A program made the position numbers and the translations under genes. Shown piece by piece: positions 3,540-59,277 of a stretch of DNA of 64,000 bases; position 1 is the first letter of the stretch, and each line of letters begins with the position of its first letter. The notes under the pieces are model-generated. The model did not search any database. It was not told the origin of the DNA and saw only the letters and a program-made list of their open reading frames with translations. Source of the stretch: Daedaleopsis sinensis (lineage: Eukaryota; Basidiomycota; Agaricomycetes; Polyporales; Polyporaceae); NCBI GenBank assembly GCA_033807695.1, contig CM066305.1:3906001-3970000 (forward strand), given 5' to 3'.

Positions 3540-6356
3540 CTATTCGCCCAGATTACAAAGGTCAATGACGCCACCCCGCCCGGGACGAACAGAAGCCGGA
3601 CCTCCGAAGTATCGCCTCTGATAGTCCTGCTTCACTCTATCAGCACGCCGAGGCGTCTCCTCTCGGTCGTGTCGCTGTTGCGAACCATCTTCAGCTAACA
3701 AGCAAGTCAGTTGGTGATGTCGCATACTCAGCCTAGGTAGGCCATCTCAACTCACAGCCGAACTGCTCGTCAAGCTTGATCGCATTGCTCAGTTCCCGGT
3801 TGAAGTCGCGCATCACCCGGCGGGCTTCCGAGAGGTAGTCGTTCCATTGAGTAGGCTCTTCGTCCCGAAGGATGAGCGCTTGGTCGCACTGATGTTCGCT
3901 TAGACGCAGATTGGACTCGCGGTTCAACTGTGGTATCATGTCCCGGAGATGCTGAATGGGGCTGACGAATCCAGCAAAGCTCTGACTGCGGTATAGTGCT
4001 TGCTGTCTCTTGAAATTGGACTCGAGCATCACCAGGTCTTCGCCAGACTTCATGATGTCCTTCAGATCAATGTTAGCGCTCGCTCAACGTCAAACTTCAA
4101 CGCACGCACCAGTGCAGACTCAATCATGGGAACTAGCTCTACTACGTGAGGCGCGTTTGCAAGCTCTGCGGTTGTTTCCACCCGTCTCGACCACTCGTTG
4201 GCTATCATACCTAATAGCTTGTTGTATCTGAGCGGGATGAACGTTTCTACGGCATCTGCAGGCATGTCATCCACTCGTCGTGTCCGCGAAGTGGATGGAG
4301 ATTGGATAGTAGCGGTTGCAGAAAGCCCACGCGTAAGAGGTTTAGCCTCACGCTCAGGGAGAAGAGTCGGATCCCATGTGACGAAGTACGTGTCACCATC
4401 CAAGTCGCCGGAAGCAATGGTGTCGGGCACCGAGTGGGACGCAGTCGAAGAGAAGACTGGTTATCGCGTTCAGCAAGAGAGAGGCTCCTTGTATGATATG
4501 ACCAACCTATGCAATTACGATGGTGTCGTAGTTCTGCATGGTCGACGGCGCGGAGCTTGCGTATATCTGGACCGACGGAGTCAACGTCACGCTCAGTAAT
4601 CTTCACGCAAGATATTACCTCCAGGGTGATAGGAAGGATTTCGCGCAACGATGACATCTCGCACTAGGACCCCACCTCGACTCGGAAGGTTAATGTACAC
4701 TTCGTCCGGCCCGAGGATCCCGTACTCGTCGACGACGCCAAACAGGTAGCCCGAGTCCTGGATGCGGAGGTTCATCTTCTTTCTCAAGCTCTCGTATTGC
4801 TTCCTCTGAAAAGCCTGCAGACGAGATTGAACCTGAGGCTCAGAAAGATCTTGCCCTGCAAGGAGCATCGCATACACTAAGACCACAAGGTAAGCAAGGT
4901 CCTCTGGGATAAAAGTCGCACGCTTACGCCCTTGCACGAAGCTGTCTTCGGCAGCTGCGTCGAGCTCCCCCTTGATGTAGGCTAGCGCCTTGTCGCGATC
5001 GGTCAGAATGGCGCCGATGAAGTCCAACTGGTCTTGCACAAGTCGCCTAAATACGTCGAGAGGGACTCCGAGCGTCAATAGAAGAGCAGTAAACTGGAAG
5101 TTCAGGCGTGCTGCGGCAGGTGCCGCGTTGTGATTGTTCAGCTCCAGAACGGTAGGGCCCCCGTCATACTTGTACATCGAAGGCCGATACGTCATCACGG
5201 GTGGTGTTCCAGGAGCGCAGTGCTGCTGGCAGAGCGTATCAAACCTTTCATCGGGATAGCGCACGAGAAGACCCTTGACTCCTCCGCGACGAATCTGGAA
5301 AACTAGGTAAACGGTTAGTAACATTCGTTTCCCATCGAAGCATCGATCAAGAGGTATTATGGAATTCTCGAGACAAAGACGAATGATCAGCCTATGGAGG
5401 TTACTGCTAACTAGGTTGTTGTGCACGGATGTGGTCACTGGTGACCCCGTGGGACACCCCGGGTGTGCCATGCGAAGGGGTCAAGGCCGAGGAACCCCAT
5501 GATAGGTACGAGACAAGACAGGACAAATGGTAGAACTGGACATACCGGTGGTATCGGGTGGAAGTCCATGCCGTGTACAGACCTCGGTCGCGAATGAATC
5601 CCGGATCATACCGCACCCATCGCTGTGCAACGATCCATCTTCGGCGACCAAGTCAGGTACCTGGAGCACCAGCTCTGGAGGAACCTGTGGAGCTTCATTT
5701 AGCACAGTGTGAATACGACAAGAATAGAAGAAGCGGGGCACGTACATCAAGTGACTGCACCGTGGAGGAGAAGGAGAGCCCGAGGCGCGCAGAATACTTT
5801 CCGTATCCAGATTCAATGTACACGGCTGGCAAGTCTCCAAAGTTTGACAACAGCCGCGGCACGGTCAACTCGTCGTCTTCTCGTAGAAACATAAGCTTCC
5901 CGGCTTTCACTTGAGACTCCGTGAATCCCAAAAAGCGATATCTGTGACTGTTGAGGTCAGTTCGACTCCGGTCGCGCTCAGCATATGTACGACTGACCTA
6001 ACACCGTGTAGTCTGATTCCGTCGCGAATCCAACTAGGCATGTTCCGGCGTAGGTCTTCATCCCTTGCACTTTTCTGCACAGAGACTAGCAAAAAACGCG
6101 AAGGATCGTCCACGAGACGCGTCGCGCGAGAGGAAGGATAGCGCTCAAGCTGAACCTCGGTGAAGTTGATTCCATCAGGGCAACTAGCACTGGTAATAGA
6201 CACATATGTTTTCTCAAGCATGAGTTCGTGAATGTCGTGAGTTGTCGTTAAATGATAGGTGAGGAAGGTAAAAGCTAAAGGTAAGCAGACGTTCAAGCCG
6301 CGGCGATCGCGGGAGATCGGAGGAAACTCGAACTCGAACATGGGCGCTAGACGCAT
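3540..6356 (-). CDS. RNA-dependent RNA polymerase (QDE-1/RdRP family), N-terminal part not found
   Basis: Cellular RdRPs copy single-stranded or aberrant RNA into dsRNA for RNA silencing (quelling). Exons joined in order give family landmarks: RFLLVSVQ; YRFLGFTESQ with SARLGLSFSSTVQ; VPPELVLQVPDLV...HSDGCGMI; VFQIRRGGVKGLLVRY; a long exon with GGPTVLELNNHNA and ending VARNPSYHPGGNIL; DIRKLRAVDHAELRHHRNCI; and SGDLDGDTYFVTWD. The DLDGD at 4392-4406 is the metal-binding catalytic motif (DbDGD) and is intact. The C-terminus continues through helical sequence to a final exon ending NLGE, stop at 3540. About 800 residues can be assembled, whereas QDE-1-type enzymes usually exceed 1,100, so an N-terminal third is missing, diverged, or in unrecognised upstream exons. 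The first in-frame ATG is 6356; the frame is open to about 6378 and a splice acceptor at about 6337 would allow upstream exons. One intron (about 5308-5550) is longer than usual. Confidence 0.85.
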
Positions 6357-8465: not shown

Positions 8466-11024
8466 ATGGGCCACCCAGAGGAAGTCGATGTCATCGTCTG
8501 CGGGTGCGTCGCAGTGCCCTCTTCTTACCCTCATGACCTCTGAATGTAAGCTTACCGTGTTTTTCTTTACAGTGGTGGACCTGCCGGCTCCGTTGTCGCA
8601 GGTCGTCTGGCTTATGCCGACCCGAACCTGAAGGTTATGCTCATTGAGGGTAAACACTGCTTTCACAAACGCGATACGGTTTCTCACCGCTGCGTCTAGG
8701 TGGCGCCAACAACCGCGATGACCCATGGGTGTACCGGTAAGTCCAAGTCCCAGATTGTTTCGTGCGACTACTCATGAAGGCTCCAGGCCCGGTATCTACG
8801 TCCGTAACATGCAGCGCGATGGGATGTGAGTCGGTACGACGTGAGCTTACTGCAGCAGTAACTGATGAAGGCATAGCAACGACAAGGCCACCTTCTACAC
8901 CGACACGATGCAGTCGTCGCACCTCCGTGGTCGGCGCTCCATCGTTCCGTGCGCGAACATCCTCGGCGGTGGTAGCAGTATTAACTTCCAGATGTACACT
9001 CGTGCCTCCGCGTCCGACTGGGGTGAGCACTCTGCTGCCTCTGAGCTACCTGCATGGCTGACAATGACATGCGCCAGACGATTTCAAGATGGAGGGCTGG
9101 ACCGCGAACGACCTCTTCCCGCTCATGAAGCGTCTTGAGAACTACCAGAAGCCAACCAACAACGACACCCACGGATATGACGGTCCGATCGCTATCAGCA
9201 ATGGCGGCCAGATCACCCCTGTTGCTCAGGACTTCCTGCGTGCTTCCCACGCTATTGGTGTCCCATACAGCGGTACGTCTACTGTTGATGAAGTCCATGA
9301 ACGAAACTCATGAGATGATATCCAGACGACATTCAGGACCTTAAGACGGCACATGGTGCTGAGATCTGGGCCAAATACATCAACCGTCATACCGGTCGTC
9401 GCAGCGATGCCGCAACTGGTGAGATTGCCTGCACTAAGTATTTTACGCAAGCGCTGACATGGTGTGTAGCCTATGTTCACAGCGTCATGGACGTTCAGAG
9501 CAACCTCTTCCTTCGTTGCAACGCGCGCGTCTCTCGTGTCCTCTTCGACGCAAACAACACCGCTGTCGGTGTTGCGTACGTCCCCTCCCGCAACCGCACT
9601 AATGGGGCGAAGGTCGTCGAGACCATCGTGAAGGCACGCAAGATGGTCGTCCTGAGCTCCGGCACTCTCGGCACGCCCCAGATCCTCGAGCGCTCTGGTG
9701 TCGGCAACGCCGAGCTCCTCAACAAGCTCAACATCCCCGTCGTGAGCGACCTCCCGGGCGTCGGCGAGGAGTACCAGGACCACTACACGACGCTCTCCAT
9801 CTACCGCGTGTCGAACGAGACGCAGACGCTCGACGACTTCCTCCGCGGTGACAAGGACACCCAGAAGGAGCTCTTCACGGAGTGGGAGACCAGCCCCGAG
9901 AAGGCGCGTCTTTCGTCGAACGCGATCGATGCCGGCTTCAAGATCCGCCCCACCGAGGAGGAGCTGAAAGAGATGGGCCCCGAGTTCAACGACCTCTGGA
10001 ACCGCTACTTCAAGGACAAGCCCGACAAGCCCGTCATGTTCGGCTCGATCGTCTCCGGCGCGTACGCGGACCACGCCCTACTCCCGCCTGGCAAGTACGT
10101 TACGATGTTCCAGTACCTTGAGTACCCCGCCAGTCGCGGCAAGGTCAGTCTGTCGATACTCTGACACGGGAGCTCGTCACTCATTATTCGTCGGTCTAGA
10201 TCCACATCAAGTCGGCGAACCCGTACGTCGAGCCCTTCTTCGACAGCGGCTTCATGAACAACAAGGCCGACTTCGCGCCCATCCGCTGGAGCTACAAGAA
10301 GACGCGTGAGGTCGCCCGCCGCATGGATGGTAAGCACGGCCTTAGCAGCTCCGGAGCCTTGATATACTGACATCGCCCATAGCCTTCCGCGGTGAGCTCA
10401 CCTCGCATCACCCGCACTTCCACCCCGCCTCGCCCGCGGCGTGCCAGGACATCGACGTCAAGACGGCGAAGGAGATCTACCCGAACGGCCTCACCGTCGG
10501 CATCCACATGGGCACCTGGCACCGCTCGTCGGAGCCGTTCGACCCGTCCAAGGTGCACGAGGACATCAAGTACACCAAGGAGGACGACGACGCGATCGAC
10601 GACTGGATCGCAGACCACGTCGAGACCACCTGGCACTCGCTCGGCACGTGCGCGATGAAGCCGCGCGAGCAGGGTGGAGTCCTCGACAAGCGCCTCAACG
10701 TCTACGGCACGCAGAACCTCAAGTGTGTCGACCTCAGTATCTGCCCCGTGAGTGTCGCGCGCGTGCACGAGCTTCCTCGAACGCTGACCCGCTCCCCTGG
10801 TTCAGGACAACTTGGGCACGAACACGTACTCGTCCGCCCTCTTAGTCGGCGAGAAGGGCGCCGACCTCATCGCCGAGGACCTGGGTGAGTTCGATCATCT
10901 CGCGAAGCTCGCCCCCATCACCTCTGACCGATATGCTGCAGGCCTCAAGCTCCGCTTCCCGCACGCGCCCGTCCCGCATGCGCCCGTCCCGACTGGCAAG
11001 CCCGCCACCCAGCTCGTCCGGTGA
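8466..11024 (+). CDS. Alcohol (methanol) oxidase, GMC family AA3_3
   Basis: FAD-dependent oxidase that converts short primary alcohols such as methanol to the aldehyde and H2O2. Twelve exons join to about 650 residues, the usual length. The N-terminus MGHPEEVDVIVCGGGPAGSV carries the dinucleotide-binding GxGxxG motif. The GMC signature region follows (NILGGGSSINFQMYTRAS), then the second GMC signature (SSGTLGTPQILERSGVG). Near the C-terminus TWHSLGTCAM and CPDNLGTNTYSSALL carry the catalytic His and Asn. Close similarity to basidiomycete alcohol oxidases is recognised throughout. There is no signal peptide. The last residues (PATQLVR) are not an SKL-like peroxisomal signal, which agrees with brown- and white-rot fungi where the enzyme leaves the cell by an unconventional route. 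Methanol from lignin or pectin demethylation is the likely substrate (inference). Introns are 45-70 nt with GT-AG borders; the first splits the GGGPAG codons (8504-8572). Confidence 0.95.
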
Positions 11025-17300: not shown

Positions 17301-17785
17301 ACGCCTTGTGCCGCAAGGACCTGGCCGAGAGAGGGAACGGTGGGCATTGAGTGAGCCTTGATCGCCCGCTGTTTCTCGCGAAACGATGGCGATGGGGTCA
17401 TCTCACGGGGAGTGATGTTCTGCATTGGACCTAGGAGCGGAGGAGCTGATAAGCTTGGTGGGAACGCAGGGAGAGAAAGAAGCGTCGGGGGAAGAAGTAG
17501 ATTCGGCCTCAAATATGACAGAACGGTTGATTGCCTAAGTATCAAGACGTGAAGCGCACAAATAGACAATGGCACGTTTTATGAAGCGACGATCGCGAAC
17601 TGTAGTAAGGAGGGAGGGATCGATAGGGCAACGGGGAAACTACAATGAAGGACGGCCAAGTGAGAGATCGGGGAAGCAGCGCCACGCGAAGAAGAAAGGG
17701 CGATGAGAAGAAGGAAAAACTTACCTGGTTGACCAAGAGGAGACTGTGCTACTTTCCGGCTGCGCTGAGGAGATAGACTGGGCAT
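14335..17785 (-). CDS. Large Pro/Ser-rich, mostly disordered protein with helical C-terminal domain
   Basis: Three exons give about 1,080 residues. Exon 1 starts at the ATG at 17785 (MPSLSPQRSRKVAQSPLGQP). It joins after an intron of about 290 nt, using the acceptor in CTCCTAG, to GPMQNITPREMTPSPSF. The frame fits only with this acceptor and reads smoothly across the junction. A very long exon is dominated by Pro, Ser, Gln, Asp and Arg tracts, with acidic clusters (EEDNGHEDDNDEPEYED, NDDGDDND). Its end, FDTRWDALVQA, is spliced to FQALDRETDATLVLLAAPSHSS, the start of a compact domain of about 170 residues. That domain has basic helices (SFSHLATQRRAARKAQR) and a coiled-coil-like end (IYEQREARWRDEMRRLSED). 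No membrane span or enzymatic motif is visible. I do not recognise the family; a basidiomycete-specific regulatory or scaffold protein is possible. Confidence 0.7.
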
Positions 17786-19339
17786 AATCTACGAAGGACT
17801 CTGGGAGGCCAGGGTCTCTGGGCGGGGGGAGGAGGAAGATGACGCGTTGGAAAGAGGAAACGTGCGGAGGATAAAAGATCGCACCTTCATAGGTGGCACT
17901 TCATTGTACTCGCGTTTCCAACGTGGCGGACGAGAGTGCGGCTGAAGGACGTCGGACAACGAGGTGGGCGACCTTGTATGGCAAGTCATGCTTGCCTCGA
18001 GGCTGATTACCGCCCTCCAGAACCCTTCGGACCGGTCTCCATATTCAGCCTACACGAGGGCCGTGCCTTTGACATGTTCCTGCGGTCATATCCGCCCTGC
18101 GCTTTTTATTCCCGGAGAGAATGAGCAGTGAGAGTGCCAGTGCTGGGAGTCGTCCATGAGTGTATGAGACAGAGATGCCGACACGCGCCACACCCATCCC
18201 ATGCGCTTCCAGCGCTTCACTTTTGCGCACCTTGTACGCACCCCTTGCGATGATTCATATCTTGCTACACCAGGCCTCAGGTAGGCTCTGATTCTCTACG
18301 AAAGAAGAGGCGCGTATTCGCCTTGCTATTGATGGACGGCCTGGTCTAGCGCATTCTCGTCACACCCGCCGCTGCTAGAAGAGAAAAGATACTTACGACT
18401 CGCACTTTATCAGAGATCCTTTAGTGCACTAGCTCCGAGAATGCATGGGACACTCCTTAGCAGCGCTGTACAGACATGCACCTGCCACATGGAAGGCGGT
18501 CCTCTCCAAGCCCGCCGATGTCGAAGCTATCGGCTAGAAACTTGAAGGGCCCGCAGGCGTTGGCTATGCCGATTACAACATTCTGAGCTTCCTGAAAGCC
18601 GTCATCAGCGCACGGATGCCTGCTCTTGTGGCGTCCGTCGTCATCGCGTCCCCAGAATCATGAGGACGTGCTTCTGGATAATGCGGGTGCAGAGACAGAA
18701 CACGACAGGCAAGCGAGGCCCGGGGACAGTGTTCAAGACGAATGAAATGTGCTTTCATCTACCTCCTTTTGTAGCTGCGGGGTGAAATCCCGCGGCAGAA
18801 GAAGACAGTAACCATCAGGTGGTTAAGCCACAAGCTATAGGTATCCCAAACATCACCAAGTTTGGTTGGCTTCAAGTACTGAGGATCCGTCACGACAGTG
18901 TCGGCGTCTGTTACGTGGACGTCAAGTAGTACTTATGACGTCACTTGGATGACTTGCGCGTTAACCTCCAATTTCATTCAAGTTGCGTCTAGCTGATGCA
19001 ATAACTTGCAGCTTCAAGGGTACACAAGTACAGGAAGCAACAGATCAATGAAAACACGTTCCGTAAATGACATTCGCAGCCTCATCGATATCGTACAACA
19101 CCGCCATGATCATGGAAGGTACCGAAGGCATTGAAATGTGTATGCAAGTTATTCCTATGGCACGAAGCCAAAGGCAGAGTCTCAGAAAGGAGAAAACATA
19201 TGAGCAAAAGCCACTCTTCGTAACCGTGAGTCATTCATTCCGAACCCGCGCCATTTTCAAAGAGCCAACGTTCCTTCGAGACACCAGTGTGCTTATCGTC
19301 GTTGTCGATGCGAGCAGGCCCCGTCCTTGCATAGACAGC
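17786..19339. other. Intergenic, no gene seen
   Basis: About 1.5 kb between two minus-strand genes. The left part must hold the promoter of the large disordered-protein gene. The rest has only short frames without motifs. I see no terminal repeats. Confidence 0.5.
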
Positions 19340-21303
19340 CTAAGTACGGCTGCGGCTGTCACCACGGTTACGAGAGCCCGAGCCGTGGCGACGAGCTTCC
19401 AGAGCCTGCATCTCGCTCTTAGCGAACATTCTCACGGGATAAGAGAGAAGAAGCGCACCCTGCGGTCGCGACTATCACCACGTCCGCGAGAACCAGAGCC
19501 GTGGCGGCGAGCCTCAAGCTGACAGGGCAGACGAGGCAATGGGTTCGTTAATGCATCCGGCAGAGTACGACACATGACTCACAGCACGACGACCCCTGCT
19601 TCCACTGCGGCCACGCGAGCCAGAGCCGTGACGACGAGCCTCGAGCTTGCGAACAACAAAGTTGAGACCGCAGGTGAAACCGACATCATGAACAGCACTC
19701 ACAGCACGACGATCCTTGCTATCACCACGGCCACGAGAGTTAGAGCCGTGGCGGCGAGCCTCGAGCTGCGCGGATTGTGAGTACATGGCCTAGAAACACA
19801 GGGAGGAGTGTCGAACTCACAGCACGGCGGCTCCTGCTGCCACTCCTCCCGCGCGAGTTTGAGCCATGGCGACGCGCATCGAGCTGATGAATGATTGATA
19901 GTGTGTTAATATGAGGCTAATGATCTCGGATTGCAAGAAACCACATACGTCGCGGCGGACATGACTGTTGCCGCGGCCACGAGAGTTGGAGCCGTGGCGG
20001 CGGGCCTCGAGCTTCGCACGGCATCAGCATGCTTTCAACACGTCAGAAACGGGGTTCACGTACATCGCGGCGGCTCCGGCTTCCGCTCCTGCCTCGGGAG
20101 TTGGAGCCGTGGCGACGAGCCTCGAGCTAACGCGAGGATCAGCGTGCTTGTTAGTAGTACAATAAATTGGAGCTAACGCACATCGCGACGGCTGCGACTG
20201 CCACTCCTGCCACGAGAGTTGGAGCCATGACGGCGAGCCTCGAGCTGGGTTCTATCATGAGCGCTGCTGTCAAATCATGAAGCAAAGGAGACGGACATCA
20301 CGACGACTCCTGCTGCCACTCCTGCCGCGGGAGTTTGATCCGTGGCGGCGCGCATCGAGCTGATGAATTATGGATAGTGTGTTAATATGAGGCTAATGAG
20401 CTCGGATTGCAGGAAACCACATACGTCGCGGCGGACGTGACTGCTGCCGCGGCCACGAGAGTTGGAGCCGTGGCGACGGGCCTCGAGCTGCCCATAGCGT
20501 TAGACATACCGCCTTCAAAAAAGAGCGGTAGCACGTACTTCGCGGCGGCTGCGGCTGCCACTCCTGCCGCGAGAGTTGGAGCCGTGGCGGCGGGCTTCAA
20601 GCTACTCACAACTTATGAGTAACCTCATCACCCAATGCAAAGACTGAACATGTACCTCGCGGCGGCTGCGGCTGCCACTCCTGCCCCGAGAGTTGGAGCC
20701 ATGGCGGCGAGCCTCGAGCTGGGTAGCAGATGTTAGCTGCTGAGGCGTTTCGCTTCCGGGAGGAGCCACTCACGTCGCGACGGGCATGGCTACTGCCGCG
20801 ACCAGGGGAGTTGGAGCCGTGGCGGCGTGCCTCGAGCTATGTGGTTGAATGATGAGCTTCTACCATGCAATACATACATGAAAATTTAGAGCTTACATCC
20901 CGACGGCTCCTGCTGCCGCTGCGACCACGAGAGTTGGAGCCGTGACGACGTGCCTCGAGCTATGTCAGAAGAGCGTGAATAACAGTACACGCACAAGAAT
21001 AGTCTACTGCTCACATCGCGACGTCCCCTGCTGCCACTGCGACCGCGACTGCCGGATCCGTGGCGGCGAGCTTCAAGCTAAAAGAATGGTGAGCAAACCT
21101 CCAACGGAGGATCCTCGCAGACATGCACGTACGTCACGACGGGTCCTGCTTCCACTGCGGCCGCGACTGCCGGAGTCTCCACCATGGCGAGGGTCACGAG
21201 CCTCTACACGAGTAGGGCTGCGGCCCCGCGCAGGGAAGTCGACGACGACACCTTTGTTGACAAGAGCGTCCGTGCGGGAGGCAACATCAACGCTCCCGGG
21301 AAG
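19340..21303 (-). repeat. Tandem exon-intron array, period 114-128 bp
   Basis: The array consists of 63-nt exons separated by introns of about 51-65 nt. Exons are highly alike; most introns differ in sequence. Two introns, 19884-19948 and 20360-20424, are both 65 nt and differ at only four positions, which marks a recent duplication of a multi-exon block offset by 476 bp. The flanking exons match too: the two exons on one side both carry the variant SHVRRD, and the two on the other both begin LDARR. Confidence 0.9.
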
Positions 21304-21430
21304 CTAGCGATCATCAGTTAAGAGTGAGTCCGCAACAGTAGTAAAGATATATGATACATACGGGGATGGCAGCCGCGGAGGAGACGACAGCCGCGATCAC
21401 GAAAAAGAGGAAGTTCTTCTTGAACTGCAT
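19340..21430 (-). CDS. Secreted arginine-rich repeat protein, one repeat per mini-exon (Kex2-processed repeat-protein candidate)
   Basis: Seventeen exons give 394 residues. Exon 1 (21362-21430) is a signal peptide, MQFKKNFLFFVIAAVVSSAA followed by AIP. Exon 2 (21133-21303) is a 57-residue spacer ending in a degenerate repeat (HGGDSGSRGRSGSRTRRD). Then come 15 copies of a 20-21 residue unit, LEARRHGSNSRGR plus (S/G)xSxxRR(D/E/A). Each copy is on its own exon: 21015-21077, 20897-20959, 20774-20836, 20656-20718, 20539-20601, 20425-20487, 20297-20359, 20182-20244, 20064-20126, 19949-20011, 19821-19883, 19703-19765, 19583-19645 (all exactly 63 nt), 19459-19518 (60 nt) and 19340-19405 (ends with stop). 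All splice in phase 0. Each unit has two dibasic sites (EARR and xxRR) suitable for Kex2 cleavage, so the protein may be cut into 13-15 residue cationic peptides. That makes it resemble Kex2-processed repeat proteins and RiPP precursors; no UstY-like (DUF3328) gene is seen in the window. An extracellular structural or antimicrobial role is equally possible. Function unknown. Confidence 0.88.
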
Positions 21431-21535
21431 CGTGAGCAAAGGGCTTTTGGAGAGGAGCGTGAGCGACGAGTTGTGAGGACTGGTACGGTAGCTAGAGCTG
21501 CGAGGCTGGAGTAAGGGAGCGTCGAACTACCCTTC

Positions 21536-21542
21536 TTTATAC
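21536..21542 (-). promoter_or_regulatory. TATA box (TATAAAG) of the repeat-protein gene
   Basis: TATAAAG on the minus strand lies about 105 bp upstream of the ATG at 21430. This is the spacing expected for a strongly expressed secreted-protein gene and supports that ATG as the true start. Confidence 0.6.
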
Positions 21543-23864
21543 TTCCCGCGGAGATGACTAGAAAGTTCCTGGAGCACGCATGTCAAAACTTTTGCACGAC
21601 GGACATGCGCGACCAAACCACCCGCAGAATGCGCAGGCGCTCTTGGCACTGAGAAAGGCTTAGTTATTTTGCGCGCGGCGGAGGCGAAGTCTGGTCAACG
21701 CGCTTGGCATCTGTGTGAGAGTAGTTGTCAACTCCTAAAAATATCACGAGCGGACGGTCAACATGTCTTGAGGTGTTATAACGGTGGTTGAACTCTATAA
21801 GACCAATGAATGGTGATTTGAACGCAGGGTCCTGGTCGAGATTCCAAGCAGCGTCGATTGGGCTATCGAGTCAGAGACTTGAATACCAATCTTCCGGCAG
21901 GTTAGTGGACTATTCGAACCCATACCAACGGATGGGAAAAAGACTTAGCACGGAGCTGTGGAGCGCAAGTACAGTACCGCTTGCCTGGCAGGTCGCGCGA
22001 CATCCATAGCCAAATGCGGTAACCCATGATCACCGGGTTGCGGGATCAGTTCCATTGTCAGTGCCACAATGTAGGTCCGACATAGCAAAGCATTCGCACA
22101 TGTTGAGCTTGACCTTGGGCTTGGCTCGCGATGTGTTGATCACGATTCCCGCTGCGCTCGAGTGGTGGGAGTGTCGTACCGCCGCCACGTCCGGGAGCCG
22201 AACCTTACAAGCACTTGCTTCTCACAGCTCCCCGGGTCACACCGTTGTCACGCAGGTTCGCTGAAGCGTATAGACTCGTAAGCTGAGAAACATGCTGAGA
22301 GCCAGCAAAGTAGTTGCGAAGAGATCTCACCTATACAGGAAGGAATTGAAGTCCACTTGAGAGCGCTAGAGACCGAAACTTTGTGTCCGAAGTCATCCAG
22401 TTTGTTTTGTCTCACAGATGGACACCTGTGAAGCATCAGATTCTCGTTGCGTGGCGTAGTCCGAATACTACTCACCCGCGTAGTAGGAGCATCATGCCTC
22501 CCTGGTACCGCGACCGAGGCTTTCCCGTCTCCCACGAGCACAAGGAACGACGGGGTGCTACTGCGCATTCCCAGGCGGCCCTTGAGTCTATTCTGAACGC
22601 CAGCGGTGGGTTGGGCGTCGTGTGAGGTATACGACAGCTTGGTGTTCATGCGAGCGATGAGTATAGCGCATTTGGAGCGCGAGTGAGGAGCACAGAGCGC
22701 GCGACGCGCGGGGATGACTCATCGCAGTCCGCAGCCGCAAATCGTGCGGTGAGGGGGCTTCAATGAGAGCGTGTCTTGGTGTGCGAACGCCGAACGCATC
22801 GCCACGGTATCTCAGCCCTTTTGCCGTTCCTGGACATGCTTTGGCACATTTCGGAACATGCCCGCCCGCACCTTCCATGGTCCCCAGGGCCAGGGAACAG
22901 GATTAGCTCTCCAAGGGTCCGGAGAAGCGAGAGCTTACGGCCTCGGCCCATGTGTTATGAAGACTGTATGAGAGGCTAAGCCGCTTGGCTGTGTCTTTGT
23001 GGTCGCGAGACTACCACCGTAGAACGACTTGGAGCGCTTGAGGAAAGTATACCACTCGCACGACCTCGAGCACGTATTGCTTCATGGACAACCGAATAGG
23101 GTCAAAGTGCCGACGAGCTCCAATGAAGGGATTCTGTTCTCTCACCTGGCGTTGAGTTGCTGCGCAGGGGCAGCTCGGCGATCGGGGTGAGCTTCATAAT
23201 CCCATCGGACCATGCGTAGAATTATGCTTGCATCATCTCTCGTCATTCACCTCGCAATGTCCTCAATTGTTTCCTCAATTGAACATGAATGTAGCGGCAG
23301 CTGCACCAATTTCGTTAGAGAGGGTGACCTCGAAAGTAGGTTAACAGAATGAGGTCATCTTTCTGGCATGCTTAAACTGACTCACCAAGGGACGCAGGTG
23401 AGCGCGCTTGAAGAATGCATATAGTATCCGTTGCAACTGCGCTGACGAACTGTTCAAGATTGCCAAGGCTTGTCGACGACAGAACAGCGCCGATATCCAC
23501 GAGGGTGGGCCAGGGGTGGGCGGTGTATCTTACCTAGTAGGTAGCGCACTCATCGATTCGGAATGCGTCAACATTGCAACATGCCAAGTCATTTGAGCTA
23601 ATCACGATACGACAGCCAGTGGGTATATCATGGTGATGCATGCATTGTGTGTGTGGGTGAGTGCGTACAGAGCAATGTCCGTGTGCTTCATAACCATATC
23701 GATCATGCGGTCTCTTGTGAGCGCGATCCAGAAGTCCAAAATACATCTGTATCTAAGTCAGTGACGGGGACTGCGACGATGTACGTCTGAGCCAGCCTCT
23801 CACCTACGCGTTGGTGCGTTTCGGCGAGTGCGATTATGCCATAACACGTCATCAGGTCCTCGTC
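21543..23864. other. Gene-poor interval, no gene seen
   Basis: About 2.3 kb without a supported gene. Frames of 60-133 codons exist on both strands (for example 22248-22649 minus) but have no recognisable domain, no consistent splice partners and no signal peptide. No terminal repeats or transposase motifs were noticed. Confidence 0.45.
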
Positions 23865-26473
23865 CTAGAGCTTAGGCGAGACCCGCGGAGACACCTGAGA
23901 GGATGCTCTTAGTCGGTTCCCCGCCAAATACACCCCCTCGCCTTTCTCAAGATCGATGTTCTCGAGAATGACACCGGCCGTGCTTGGAGAGCCTTGGCGT
24001 ATGCCCATATTGCTGGTCTCTGCGCCGATGAGCCCAGTGAGCCCGAGACCGACCATAGAGTCCGAGGTGTGCTTCCCGTGTACTTTCTCGTCGTCGGACT
24101 GCCGTGCGTTTCTCTTGCCGGCCCTCTCCCTATCGCGACCCCTCTCACCGTCTGGACGCGTAAAGCGACTACGACGGTCTCGCCGAGCACTGATGTGAGA
24201 GTAGGAGGCGAAGGTATTGATGATCATCCCCAAGTTGAACAAGCCGAACGCGAAGACAACAGAGATGGCGATTCGGACAGCGAGCGCTTGTCGGAAAGTT
24301 AGAGGAGCAAAGCCGTCCTGATCAGCGTCGGACCCCGTGCGCCAGACGAAGGAGAGAATCGAAATGCAGAAGGCAATCATCGACCAGGCCAACCAGATGG
24401 CAGGCGTCGCGAGGAGAACCCAGATGTTCCAGAAAAGTGCCGTACGAGTCTTGCGCGCTTCCTGCGAGAAGGTGAGTTGATGAACGACTATCGAAATATT
24501 GCGCGACGAACCTCTGCCCATCGAGACGCCCTGTCCATGCTCCGCATTGTACCAAAGTGCACGATGTAGACACAGCCGTAGGACAGGCTCCACAACGCAA
24601 AGACTAGTGAGAAAAGGGCAGCCCACCGCGTTACAGGGTCGTCAGCGGCCTCCTGTATCTGGAAGATCGTCAAGATGGTTCTGGAATATGAATGAGTAAT
24701 CGGTTACTAAGAGATGCGAATGTATCACTGACGTGCACAACAAAGCGGATACGAGATTGAAAGTCTTCCACTCTCGCATTAGAGTATCTACGAAACCCTC
24801 CCAGGAGATCTTGAACCGAGCCAACGCCGGTGACACCGTCGGCGGATTCCACTCCTCTGGGTATGGCAAGCCAAGCACAAGGCTCTTCTGACCGCCGTTT
24901 GGTGTAGCGAACCCAGTTGCTATTGCCGCGTCCACGGAAGGGTCATGCGCGAAATGACCACACGCGTCGATTAAGCGCTCTATCTCGGGTTTGCTAACTT
25001 CGGCATCCTCAAAGACGCGCGCCACCCTCTGCCAATACAAGGTAGGAAGACGCAACAAGAACCACAGGTAGCACTGCCGCGGTAGGGAGTATGTGAACAA
25101 GGATGTCGCATCATTTATGAAGGTACGCCATTTCTGACGCTTGCGGTGCTCATGGGCTCTGAAATCTGTTTCGTCATTCTTCCTGGGCCCGATAGGACAG
25201 AGCGCATAGAGCGTTCGGATGCGCTCCAGTCGCACTTGTAAAGGTGTCGGTTCGGTCGGTGGGCGGCTGGGGGAGGGCTCCCGTCGCAAGCCAAACCAAC
25301 GGATGTGAGAGCTGAAGGGGTTAACGGGAACGAACGGTTCGTCGCGAGTGTGGTTACGATGCAGATTCCAGCCTTGGAGTATTCGCAGCGGCGACGCCGC
25401 ACGCGATTGCGCCGGTGAGCGAGACGGCGGCGTTTGGAACGCGTCTCTGCCCGGCATTTGCGGCGATAGATTGGTGGTAGCATGCCTGTTGCTCGAGCTC
25501 CGAGTATGGCCTTGTCGAGAGGGAGGTGGGGACTGGCTGAGCGCCTGACCTCGTGCGGATGCTTCACGAGACCGGAGCGATGGTGACCCTACTGCGGAGT
25601 CACTGTGGTGTATGATACGACCAGTCACAGCTATGTGCGAGGAAACATTCGCTTGATCAGCAACCTGTTCTCCCGGAAAGAGGGAGAGAGAGTCATGCCA
25701 TCCTCCGCGAACCCGAGAGTACACGTCAAGAGTGACTGTATGCGCACTTCGCTACAACGACCATGTGCCGCGGTGACGTGCAACACGTTCGATTTCGCGC
25801 GCGTCATGTCATGAAGGAGAAACTGGGCACTTTGAGTCTACTTCTGCGAGTAAAGCCTGTATGGCCGCCCCTTGGAAGGAAATGGGCAGTCCTTGCTCTT
25901 ACGAGGTGCAAGAATACGACTTCGAGGGAATGGGAGGCGTCTTTTCGCCATGGGAGCGGAGGAATAGTGTGGAAGAGAATCTGCTCACCTTGCCTGATGT
26001 TCTGCAGCGTTGCGGGAAGAGACCGCTCGCTTTCGTGCCTCTGCCGTGGAGTACCGTCCCTCACCACAGAGTCCGACTCGCTTTGCCGACTCGGCCCAGG
26101 AAGGGTTTGGAGCCCTCGGAGGCTGCTAGAGGCCGAGTCTATGGATGTTAACGAGCCTGAGGCATCGACGCCGCGACGGTACGGGCGACTGAGCCGATCG
26201 AGCACCGCGGTCGACTGTGTAGGCAGCGCTGTGAGCTTGTCGGAGCTCGTCAGAGCTGACGACGAGGAGGCGGATTCTGGAGAGTAATGAGTGTCTGAAC
26301 GAATGAATATCGCGCATATACCCACCTCTGAGTCTTTGCTCTCCCTCCCCCTCTCCCTCTCCCTCTCCCTCTCCGTGCCCCTGCCCCTGCCCGACCTCGG
26401 GCGGGAAAGGAATCGAATTGGAACGTTTTGGTGGGATTGGGCGGTGATCTGCGGGGGTAGGAGTGCTAGACAT
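23865..26473 (-). CDS. Multi-pass membrane protein with disordered N-terminus (basidiomycete conserved type)
   Basis: Six or more exons. Start ATG at 26473 (MSSTPTPADHRPIPPKRSNS). The first exon holds a Gly-Glu repeat (26340-26392 as a CT-rich tract), then splices at LRG|ESASSSSALTSSDK. A 350-nt intron joins LQNIRQ to GSPSLRSREASARG. The middle is Ser/Pro-rich. The conserved part begins near QVRLERIRTLYALCPIGPRK and continues YSLPRQCYLWFLLRLPTLYWQR, SWEGFVDTLMREWKTFNLVS, a Val/Ala/Leu span with TIFQIQEAADDPVTRWAA, LVFALWSLSYGCVYIVHFGTM, EARKTRTALFWNIWVLLATP, AIWLAWSMIAFCISILSFVW, and one last span IAISVVFAFGLFNLGMIINT. That is about five transmembrane helices. The cytosolic tail is Arg-rich then Ser-rich, stop at 23865. 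I know the pattern as a recurring hypothetical membrane protein in Agaricomycetes; function unknown. Confidence 0.8.
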
Positions 26474-34691: not shown

Positions 34692-36326
<1,635 letters not shown>

Positions 36327-43504: not shown

Positions 43505-44118
43505 CGCGGCGAGCCCGCACAGTGCTAGTGTCCGTGCCTGTCGGTGCTCGTCTTGCTCTCTCTGTTTTTGCCTCACGAGTCGTGTAGACCTGGCGTAGGC
43601 TCTGCTGTCTTTCGTGTAGATGCTTTCGTGTCCCGATAACCACGTAGCTCCGTTGCGCCACCTCCTTCCCAGCCCTCGCTCAGGCCCTTGTATCGAAGTG
43701 CATCCCTGTCGTCATCCTGATCCCGCCTATATGTTATCCCATATGTGCATGCCCGACGGACTTTATGGTTGGAGCGATGCTCCTAGTACCTGGCGGTGAT
43801 GCAATAAAGTTTCTGCCCGCTGCGTCGGCGTTGCTGTCTGCGTTCGCGCGGCCGCGGCCCACAATATCGGGAATGGCCCAGAGGCGCAGGCGCGCCCCCG
43901 CGCGTCCTACTAGCAGCTAATGGCACCGTCCCCACATCGCATCTGGTGGCGGACCGTCGTGGAAAACCGGCCAAGGTGCATCACCGCCGCAAGGAAAGCT
44001 CCAAAGTTCATCCATTACAAGAACACGTCGTGCAGTCTAATATAGTCAAGAGCGATGTCGCGGAATCGCCGCGAGAAGACACGAAATATGATTTACTACC
44101 AGCCATTGCGCACCGTTT
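43505..44118. other. Convergent 3' intergenic region
   Basis: About 610 bp between the 3' ends of the DnaJ gene (+) and RFC1 (-). No supported coding sequence; 3' UTRs are expected here. Confidence 0.5.
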
Positions 44119-47100
44119 TCAGGTCTTCTTCGTCCCCTTCCCTTTCGCAGGTGCCTTGCCCTTTGCGGCCGCTGCGCCCTTGCCTTTGCCCTTCGCCGCC
44201 TTGATGAGGCTGTCGTTCTCGAGCCTGTCATCCGTCTCCTCCTTCTCGTCGTCCTCCGCCTCCGGGACCTCGTCGTCGACCTGCGCGTCCGGACCCGGTG
44301 CGTGGTCAGCTCTCGCGTGGACGATACAGAGACAGAGAACTGCAATAAATCGTCGGGACTCACGTCGTACGCCTCCTCGAGGTCGGGCGCGGGCCCCGCC
44401 GCGGCAATCTTCTTGGGCGCCTTGCCAAGCGCCTCGGCCTTGTGGAACGCGACAGGGTGGTCGCGCGCGTTGTACTTCTTCGTGAAGGACGTCTTGGTCG
44501 CGGCCGAGATCTTCTTGAGGACGTGTACGTCCGCGTTGTCGCCGACGCCGAGCTCGATGATCGTGTCCCAGTCCTCGCGCGTGAGGAAGTACTCGTCCAT
44601 GAACTCGATCGTCTCGTCCACCACGCTCTGTCCCCGTGTCAGCATCAGCATCCCCGTCGACGGGCGAATGGGAGTGGGTATGACGTACCGCGCCGCGCTC
44701 CATGAGCGGTTGCACGATGTGCGGGAACAGCGCCGGGATGTACGACTGGCGGATCTCTGATTTGTCGCCCGACACTCTGAGGCGCATGCGCGCTTGTGTG
44801 TCCGTGAGCGCGCGGCTCAACTTCGTCTGCTTCGAGTTCTGGCCAAGCCATCTGGGGCGGGAGACGTCAGTACCCGCAGAGCGACAGAAGACATCGAGCC
44901 GTGACGTACTGCGGGAACGACATTGCGTTGGGTCCACCGTATCCTGCTCCCATGCCATAGATCATAGACGCCGGGCGCACTGTTGAGCAGACTGCGTGGA
45001 GGGGCATCAGGGACCAATATTGGTTCGGTCTGGGGAGGGATCGTCAGTCGTATGGGGAGCGCAAAACGTAGAGAAGCGTACCCGTGAATCAGACTGTCGA
45101 CGAGATCGCCGTCAGAAATAGAGCGCGACGCTTTCTCCATGAGTTCGAGGTGCTTCAGAATTTTCTCTGGCCCGTCGGCGTTCCTGATACGCGAAGGCGT
45201 CGTTTTGAGATAGTTCTCCTATAAGATGCGGTTGGTCGTGAGCGTACTGTGTATACATACAATATCGGCGCGACGAACCTGCATGAACAGTGGGATGAAT
45301 GAGGGATCGTGGAAGTACATCTCAATCTTGTCCCCCAGTGTCTCGCGCGAGGTCGGCGAGAACATCTGCGGCCCCAGCATCTTGTTCAGGACACCGAAGG
45401 GAGTCATGACAGAGTACTTTTCGTTCATCTTCACACTGAACCAGGAATTAGCGGCGACGCGTGTGTATGGAAGAGCAGAACTTACAGCGCTTTGCCCTCG
45501 TCAAAGTCCATAGTCGCGCTAGAGAGCCGCCATGTCGACAGCATGTTGAGGACTTGACGGATATCCGACTGCGCGCCCTGTACGAGCTGGTCGATAACGT
45601 TCGCAGGAATCTTCATCTTCTCCCTATAGAGGCACGAAAGCAGTCAGAATTCACATCGAGCGGACAGGCACCAAGCACGCGTACTTGTAGGCGACACTCA
45701 GTATCCTGGACCGGATCGCAGCAGGCTCGGGCCGCTTGAACGTCATGTTGAAAGTGACATTGGTCAGCGGCTTCAGCTTCTGTGCGCCGCGGTCGTTCGC
45801 GATGCAGATAATGGGAATCTTCGTCTTCTTGATCAGTTGGACTAGAGCGACGACGCCTCCGCGGTCCCCCGCCGACATGCCGTCGACCTCGTCCATGATG
45901 AGGCACGATTTGTCCGTGACAGTCATGCCGGCTGCGTTCGTTTTCTACGGGATGACTGAGTGACCGTCCCCTCTGGACATGAGGGATTTGACTGACCTGT
46001 CCACCGGACATCCACCCATCTAGCGACGTGTTCATAATATTCGTGCTGTTCTACAAGCAGCTGTCAGGCAAACTATCTCCACGCGGCGTTGCGAAATAGC
46101 GAACGCACCTCCACGAGCTTCTTGCTCCGCGCATCGCTAGCGTTCAGCTCGATCGGCGTGAGCCCTGCCAGCTTTGCGCACAGATGCGCACTGGTGGTCT
46201 TCCCGATGCCCGGCGGGCCGGTGATCATCACCGCACGGAAGATGTTCATGCCCTCCTTGCCCGGCTTCTTGAAGTCGGACTTAAGGCTCGCCGGCCAGCT
46301 CGCGAGCCAGCTCTGCAGCCGCTCGACCTGGGCCTTGTTCCCGCAGATCTCCTTGAGGTTCTGCGGGGCGTACCGATCCGTCCAGAGCTGGTTCGCGGCG
46401 GTGGGCTTCGCTGTGCTGTGAAGGACGCTGTGAGCTGGGACTCGACCGCGGAGACGGAAGGGCAACATACGCGCCGCTAGCGGCACTCTCTTTAGCCGCC
46501 TGTTTCTCGCGGCGCTCCATCTCCTTCGCGCTCTCGCGAATCGCCTCCTGCTCCTTCTCCAATTTCTTCAGTGTCTTAGGATCCATTTTGCTCTTGTCCG
46601 TGACGCGCGTGGCGATCAGGTTCAGGAAGCCGTCCTCGTCGAGCGTCTTCAGTTTGTTCTTCTCGATCGCTTTGAGCTTGCTCGGACCGGCATCGGCGCC
46701 GAGAACGACGTACGACGTCTTCGAGGAGGGCTGCCCTACCACCCGCCTAGCAGCGCACCTAGTGAGCGCAATGGATATTAAAAATGCAGGGTTGGCAGAC
46801 GCACCCGCCATAACGCTTCGCGAGCTCAGTGGCCTCGTCGCGAGACAGGCTGCTGAGCTCTCCAGTGAACACGAAGGAGAGACCGGCCAGACAGTTCGGG
46901 TCCTGCGCGATCGGTATCTCCTTTGAGCCCGGGTTCGACGGCCCTGCGCGTGCCTTCATGGCGTACCAGCTGCGCACGGCAAGGCGTTAACTCTGTACAC
47001 AACTATTCGAGGAACGGGAGCAGCGCGTACTTGGGTTTCTTGGCGGGCTGCTCATCGGCCTTCTCATCTCCTTTGGCCGCCTTCTTGTCCTCCGAGGGCA

Positions 47101-58112: not shown

Positions 58113-59277
58113 TCAGCACGTAAAAACCCCCGGTCCTGATGCGCTCGATCAGCTCTTTACCCGACCGATTTTGCGCATGCCATACTCACCGGGGATGGTG
58201 TAGTTTGACAGGGTCTGGTAGATGTTGATCTTGATACCTATCGGACATGCGCGTTAGCGCCGGCCGATCCGGTCGATGAACACATAGAGACATACCTGGG
58301 TCGGTGCCTTGGTAGGCACCAGGGAAGGAGACAGTGGCGGGGGTCTTGGACCCTGACCCCCCCGTAATATTGATCTGCGCACACTCCATGTAGAACTGCG
58401 CGCCAGGGTAGCTACTTGCAGCGTGGAGGGCTGCACAACCATGTCGGATGAGTACGGACTGCCCACGCAAGCATTCGAAAGCGAGTAAGAGACGTTGCGC
58501 ACCGATGATCTCGTGGCGGAGGAGGTACTGCCCGGACTCAATGCAGCTCGGGATGGTGAACGAGACCTTGCCCTGGTTCTGGATGAGGCGGTCGACGGCC
58601 CACGTGTTCGTGGACGGCGTGTAGCCGTCCTCCTGGATCTTGAACCACTTGAGGCCGGTAACATCGCTTTGCGTCGCGTCGGGGATCTTCGCACTGTAAG
58701 GGCGGTTACATACGCCATAGTCCTCATTCATGATATGCTCTTACAGGTAAGAGATAACAGGGCCCTTGTGACTGGAGTCGATGGGGTCAGCCGGATCGTT
58801 CGGTGTCTGGTTGAGCGTGTGGTGCCACTATATAGTAAATATCGCCGCATCAGAGCCCATCCGCTGTCAGCGTACACTCGTTCTGAATTTCCTGCGTACC
58901 TCAGCAGTGACGGTTGCACCAGCAGGGACGTCAATGACGGCAGTAGAGATAGGTGTGTGGTACGGGTTGATGCCTGTAGTGGACGAATTGGTCCGTGAGC
59001 CCGGCCGGGAAGTGTAGTGAACGGCGAAAGTATGTACCTCCGTTGCAGATGATGTCGTTGGAAGTCACATCTTGAATAGGCTATGGGCAATAATAAGTGC
59101 TCAACGAACATGAAGAATAGCGCAGAGAAGAGTGTATACGCCATCGTAGTCGGGGGCGCGGATGCCCGTCAGCTCGCCCTGGTCAACTCCATTGACGTAC
59201 AGCTTCTGGAAGATGGTGTGTGCAGAGGCAGAGCTTGCGAGGATCGCGGCGGTCGCTACGGCAGCGACCCTGGTCAT
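58113..59277 (-). CDS. Lytic polysaccharide monooxygenase AA9 (former GH61), upstream-paralog pair member 1
   Basis: Secreted copper enzyme that oxidatively cleaves cellulose or xyloglucan chains. The ATG at 59277 begins a signal peptide ([19 protein letters not shown]); cleavage exposes His1 of [20 protein letters not shown], the N-terminal half of the copper histidine brace. Exons continue with [54 protein letters not shown] (second brace His), [37 protein letters not shown], and [15 protein letters not shown], with the axial Tyr and nearby Gln. The last tiny exon, using the acceptor GCGCATCAG, gives NYTIPGPGVFTC and stop at 58113, matching AA9 ends. About 240 residues with no CBM1, usual for single-domain AA9. 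Head-to-tail with the paralog at 60069, same intron positions. TATA box 90 bp upstream. Confidence 0.95.

Follow-up and report, generated by a model that had tools for sequence, protein, structure and literature searches.

A single-copy-looking gene of Daedaleopsis sinensis with the predicted plan of a KEX2-processed repeat protein and one peptide unit per phase-0 mini-exon

Introduction

One minus-strand locus in a 64,000-nucleotide stretch of Daedaleopsis sinensis DNA (the window, within which all positions are given) raises the question of whether an array of short, similarly sized exons, each holding one Arg-rich repeat, is a real gene and, if so, what the fungus would make from its product. 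The obvious frame of reference is the KEX2-processed repeat proteins (KEPs), which the available portions of PMC6339444, PMC7329392 and PMC9769878 describe as a signal peptide followed by repeated cores between dibasic sites, the plan that we find here. According to the available portion of PMC9769878, peptides of this kind are widespread among fungi, their function being mostly unknown; that study expressed other KEPs in Pichia pastoris.

Results

The mini-exon array and its exon-intron model

The assembly around the window comprises 51.6 Mb in 24 contigs, and the locus lies on contig C6. Between positions 21430 and 19340 of the minus strand, 17 joined exons give an uninterrupted 394-aa protein containing 110 Arg and no Tyr (Table 1). 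The exons measure 69 nt, 171 nt, thirteen times 63 nt, 60 nt and 66 nt (stop included), every junction is in phase 0, and the 16 introns, each 51-65 nt long, uniformly have GT-AG ends. The exon model confirms the coordinates, the strand, the 17-exon layout, the thirteen 63-nt exons and the phase that a preliminary description of this DNA had given. The length of 12 of the 16 introns is not a multiple of three and a further three contain an in-frame stop, so that 15 of the 16 could not be retained without disrupting the frame; the exception is the open intron 14, of 57 nt. Exons 16 and 17 deviate from 63 nt because their junction has slid by one codon, which places the Ala of RRA in exon 17. 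Sixteen units are present in total, 15 of them exon units and the other a degenerate first unit, VEARDPRHGGDSGSRGRSGSRTRRD, in exon 2; the second exon, previously regarded as a spacer, does exist as a separate exon, but it also carries this unit. No Pfam match to the precursor was found, and no RNA families were found in 17500..24000. By all the sequence evidence at hand, the mini-exon array is a real gene.

Table 1. Positions of the promoter motif and exons of the repeat gene in the window
Feature	Position	Strand	Basis
TATAAA box, 111 nt upstream of ATG	21536..21541	-	consensus match only
Exon 1, 69 nt, predicted signal peptide MQFKKNFLFFVIAAVVSSAAAIP	21362..21430	-	exon model
Exon 2, 171 nt, pro-region with RGRSP and degenerate first unit ending RTRRD	21133..21303	-	exon model
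Exon 3, 63 nt, unit LEARRHGSGSRGRSGSRGRRD	21015..21077	-	exon model
Exon 4, 63 nt unit	20897..20959	-	exon model
Exon 5, 63 nt unit	20774..20836	-	exon model
Exon 6, 63 nt unit; 92% identity to exon 10	20656..20718	-	exon model, unit comparison
Exon 7, 63 nt unit; 84% identity to exon 11	20539..20601	-	exon model, unit comparison
Exon 8, 63 nt unit; 95% identity to exon 12	20425..20487	-	exon model, unit comparison
Exon 9, 63 nt unit; 87% identity to exon 13	20297..20359	-	exon model, unit comparison
Exon 10, 63 nt unit	20182..20244	-	exon model, unit comparison
Exon 11, 63 nt unit	20064..20126	-	exon model, unit comparison
Exon 12, 63 nt unit	19949..20011	-	exon model, unit comparison
Exon 13, 63 nt unit	19821..19883	-	exon model, unit comparison
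Exon 14, 63 nt unit	19703..19765	-	exon model
Exon 15, 63 nt unit	19583..19645	-	exon model
Exon 16, 60 nt unit (junction slid one codon)	19459..19518	-	exon model
Exon 17, 66 nt, last unit ALEARRHGSGSRNRGDSRSRT and stop	19340..19405	-	exon model

Predicted processing of the precursor

The gene probably encodes a KEP, whose processing we predict from its layout. The predicted signal peptide has a basic n-region, a hydrophobic peak of 3.3 (Kyte-Doolittle, 9-residue window) and an Ala-rich end before IP, and the near-identical internal repeats that mark KEPs are present as the 15 exon units plus the degenerate one. The exon-encoded cassette, in 15 copies, has the form [D/E/A]-intron-L[E/D]A-RR-HG...-RR. 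Arg-Arg precedes His in all 15 exon units (a basic pair stands before HG in 15 of the 16 units, the first unit lacking it), and the distal Arg-Arg is found in 14 of 15; the two dibasic sites formerly assigned to every unit therefore hold for 14 exon units, exon 17 having one Arg-Arg instead of two. The intron sits within the four-residue acidic linker, between D and LEA, so that each exon holds one whole peptide together with its sites. The number of Arg-Arg pairs in the 15 exon units (29, versus a shuffled mean of 28.0) shows no excess over composition, and the case for a KEP thus rests on the placing and conservation of these pairs.

In the secretory pathway, Kex2 would cut after Arg-Arg, and a Kex1-type carboxypeptidase would then trim the Arg residues. 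In-silico cleavage with Arg trimming yields fourteen 13-residue peptides (seven copies of HGSNSRGRSGSRS and seven others) and one C-terminal peptide of 15 residues, with the linkers DLEA, ALEA, ELEA and DLDA and a pro-fragment of ~55 residues as predicted by-products. The cell would secrete the 14 + 1 peptides and the four-residue linkers. All predicted peptides start with His-Gly; they are hydrophilic, with no more than one Ala or Val each, and have a net charge of +1 to +3 when His and the termini are left out. Ligands for anionic polymers, a metal or a receptor would fit better than membrane-lysing peptides, and metal or polyanion binding, or signalling, are reasonable guesses from the N-terminal His and the several Arg. 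A single genomic match to the P domain of proprotein convertases was found, and the open frame next to it matches Peptidase_S8. The sequence supports the earlier proposal of a secreted Kex2-type repeat precursor whose peptide units, about 15 of them, occupy phase-0 mini-exons.

Age, selection and growth of the array

The introns share a mean pairwise identity of 0.54, no higher than expected from the 0.52 (sd 0.04) that shuffled introns give, and the pair 8/12, 94% identical, is alone in lying far above the shuffled level; despite their diverged sequence, all introns keep their GT..AG ends and a length of 51-65 nt. The 14 units of exons 3 to 16 have a mean identity of 0.754, with a pooled dN of 0.148 and a dS of 1.197, the latter near saturation. 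In all 91 unit pairs (which share ancestry and are not independent) pN is below pS, and residues 1-13 of the unit are held more tightly (pN 0.070) than the final 8 (pN 0.232). These substitution patterns indicate an old array whose peptide is under purifying selection.

Units four apart resemble each other more than expected, with a mean identity of 0.806, a value reached by 0.0022 of 5000 shuffles (six offsets tested). Exon 8, intron 8 and exon 9 are 0.95, 0.94 and 0.87 identical to exon 12, intron 12 and exon 13, respectively; other introns four apart are without a copy signal (0.61 for 7/11, 0.53 for 9/13 and not above 0.55 for 6/10). The array would have grown by the copying of exon-intron cassettes, whose coding repeats are now separated by diverged introns, and a four-cassette copy may have been followed by a later copying or conversion event that covered exons 8-9 and 12-13. 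Since the copy is still visible in the intron pair 8/12 only, the rest being long diverged, turnover of cassettes appears slow. The suggestion that repeat number can change in frame thus survives in part: the likeness at four units and the 8/12 copy speak for cassette copying, but the units are otherwise old and their turnover slow. Exon skipping, the other route considered for such change, is less likely with introns of 51-65 nt, given splicing by intron definition.

Apparent uniqueness in the genome

A blind scan for groups of at least three similar phase-0 mini-exons, bounded by AG and GT and containing a dibasic pair, returned only the present locus (11 units in one group and 3 in a second) from a non-random 264-kb sample made up of the window and twenty further 10-kb stretches of this genome, of which 8 surround matches to UstYa and 12 come from contig C6. 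The whole-gene DNA search of the genome likewise found only this locus, and a protein search with 83 aa of units gave 13 matches at the locus and one on contig C5 at E = 9. All 15 genome matches to a LEARRHGS-type codon pattern fall at the locus. A looser pattern of a splice acceptor plus LEARR matched 15 times, 12 of them at the locus, and its reversed control matched 14 times; each of the 3 off-locus matches is one isolated LEARR or LDARR without an array. Judged among the best-scoring candidates, the gene looks single copy. The conserved KEP core of Coprinopsis matched the genome at best with E = 0.33, at a site where inspection by eye of the three frames of the matching strand found no convincing KEP.

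Relatives and their public gene models

Three protein searches found at least 18 distinct relatives, mostly in Polyporales, bearing out the expectation that related genes would occur in other species. They include Cubamyces menziesii, C. lactineus, Trametes punicea, T. sanguinea, Lentinus brumalis, Pilatotrama ljubarskyi and Steccherinum ochraceum, for three of which we assume the order from the genus. Weaker relatives come from Sanghuangporus baumii (Hymenochaetales), Sphaerobolus stellatus (Geastrales), Ramaria rubella (Gomphales) and Psilocybe cyanescens (Agaricales); the links to Sphaerobolus (E = 8.9e-9), Ramaria (1.2e-5) and Psilocybe (2.3e-3, the weakest) are weak, and the protein records of Sphaerobolus and Psilocybe show shorter units (e.g. 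ELDARRHGDSHGRR). An N-terminal MQFKxxFxxFV is found in 8 of 10 relatives compared, and RGRSP of the pro-region is common to P0001, P0002, P0003, P0005 and P0008.

A basic pair precedes HG[D/S/G] in 43 of the 54 instances in the relatives listed, some of which are near-duplicates: ARR 35 times, KRR 5 times, TRR twice and KRK once, the swap from ARR to KRR or KRK leaving the basic pair intact. First-unit forms, DPR among them, make up the remaining 11. The distal Arg-Arg is absent from every second unit in Cubamyces (P0001 and P0002; SGSRSANVRTIEARR type, of the form SGSRSA..[K/R]TIEARR) and from one unit of T. punicea (P0003), so that of the two pairs only the one in front of His is general. 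The C-terminal unit HGSGSR[N/D]RGDSR (window 19340-19405) is recognisable in the models of P0005 (Lentinus) and P0014 (Sanghuangporus), and the end of the array may accordingly be older and more stable than its middle.

The relatives' protein records also bear traces of exon structure. Val (GTN) directly follows RR[D/E/G] in 7 of the 18 relatives listed (P0005, P0007, P0009, P0011, P0013, P0015 and P0017; a raw count) and follows an RRSE or RQD variant of the motif in P0008 and P0010, which makes 9 of 18 with Val at the place where the intron of the present gene would start. In five of these nine (P0005, P0007, P0013, P0015 and P0017, of which P0005/P0007 and P0015/P0017 are close pairs) Gln stands directly before LEARRHG. 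The public model of L. brumalis (P0005) reads RRD-VSSCLHYPTSWSRLIQTSFNQ-LEARRHG, an insert of 21 codons with Val (GTN) first and Gln last, and looks between its two units as a retained intron at the same place would; P0013 has the same Val-to-Gln pattern over 18 codons. In P0011, apparently unspliced, two units run together without an intron between them. Units in a wrong frame were detected in 7 of the 18 relatives listed (P0001, P0002, P0003, P0006, P0007, P0015 and P0017) and in none of 90 shuffled sequences; the same scan gave no unit match in P0010. Mis-joined small exons, or introns read through, would explain the wrong frames, as far as protein records can tell. Several related fungi thus seem to share signs of the one-peptide-per-exon layout, often misread by public gene models.

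Genes around the locus

Pfam matches among 20 scanned open reading frames of the window are to GMC oxidoreductase, RFC1 pieces, AA9, RdRP, GH10 with CBM1, and TPR. Genes of wood-decay type are an AA9 (LPMO) at 58186-58740 (-), a GH10 with CBM1 at 35804-36322 (-) and a GMC oxidoreductase at 9319-10164 (+). An RNA-dependent RNA polymerase (Pfam RdRP), which we take to be of the silencing type, lies at 4593-5480 (-). The C-terminal domain of RFC1 and a nearby AAA/Rad17-like piece, at 44046-44816 and 46073-46567 (-), probably belong to one gene for replication factor C subunit 1.

Elsewhere in the genome, 12 UstYa matches lie on contigs C8, C10, C11, C12 and C3, several of them in close pairs that are possible dikaritin clusters; a simple mini-exon scan of the 10-kb stretches around UstYa matches found no repeat precursor.

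Discussion

Could the protein instead leave the cell uncut, as a disordered wall or matrix protein rich in Arg, Gly and Ser, in which the Arg-Arg pairs are incidental? We regard this as unlikely, even though the pairs are no more numerous than composition predicts and alternate Cubamyces units do without the distal one, because different genera conserve the basic pair ahead of His-Gly, in a constant position of the cassette and next to an acidic linker, and because each exon delimits one core with its sites. That the array is decaying or unexpressed and without function is a poorer explanation still, and a very unlikely one: several relatives' annotated models are out of frame, yet here dN is well below dS, all 16 introns have intact ends, the 394-aa frame is uninterrupted and preceded by a TATA box, and related genes occur in several genera.

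A dikaritin-type RiPP precursor, with peptides cyclised by UstYa proteins as in ustiloxin, would have a similar general plan, and the genome does contain UstYa matches; none of the 12, however, is on contig C6, the protein lacks Tyr, and the Pfam-matched open reading frames of the window (20 scanned, 87 listed) do not form a RiPP cluster. The parallel with ustiloxin drawn in the preliminary description is therefore unsupported, and we give this reading hardly any credence. Ustiloxin and dikaritin precursors resemble the present one as secreted Kex2-type repeat precursors, but have a Tyr core and neighbouring UstYa genes, both of which are missing here.

We prefer the reading as a KEP. The 13-residue cores fall in the 9-24 aa core class, which the available portion of PMC6339444 reports as more abundant than any other in Dikarya, yeast-like Basidiomycota excepted. 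Unlike the KEPs described in these papers, as far as their available portions go, the present gene has one cassette per phase-0 exon and an Arg/Ser/Gly core that begins with His-Gly. The words exon and intron do not occur in the main texts of PMC6339444 and PMC7329392, and in that of PMC9769878 exon does not occur and intron occurs once (in connection with cDNA cloning); HGDS, RRHG and HGSG occur in none of the three main texts, although supplementary tables may list the family. We considered Type G-1/P-2 of PMC7329392 as the same family and dropped it, since the available portion describes its profile as high in Tyr; that type is reported there at roughly one per strain in 49 genera, among them Trametes, Lentinus, Sphaerobolus and Sanghuangporus.

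Among other precursors, those of ascomycete alpha-factor share several peptide copies and short linkers with the present gene, but their core is unrelated. The STE13 signature (XA or XP right after the Kex2 pair) is absent here, where the linkers are DLEA, ALEA, ELEA and DLDA and the cores start with HG. Ascomycete alpha-factor repeats lie in one open frame. The diatom silaffin-1 precursor is a secreted Ser/Gly/basic repeat polyprotein cut beside Arg-Arg, and schistosome micro-exon genes, which have symmetric exons, are animal genes without the Kex2 repeat plan. Silaffin-1 is an analogy of composition only, and the schistosome genes, whose secreted product is built from many small exons (PMC5825161, available portion), are likewise only an analogy.

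No description of a one-peptide-per-exon architecture or of these motif letters was found in the open-licence literature; KEPs themselves are known, and the layout is new as far as our literature searches reach. Since exon and peptide coincide, the copying or loss of entire exons could adjust how many peptides the gene encodes and what their sequences are. We tentatively propose a Polyporales peptide family in which each mature peptide and its sites lie in one phase-0 mini-exon and selection keeps this layout; the diverged introns might stop the coding repeats from pairing and collapsing, copying of whole cassettes might alter dose and variants without loss of frame, and mis-spliced annotation might leave the class out of, or shortened in, KEP surveys based on proteomes. 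PMC6339444 and PMC9769878 worked, according to their available portions, from protein catalogues or a predicted proteome. Because the public models of several relatives start right and then run into a wrong frame, surveys that rely on predicted proteomes would recover the array only in part. This suggests a blind spot in annotation; such genes would come to light in a six-frame search for arrays of mini-exons.
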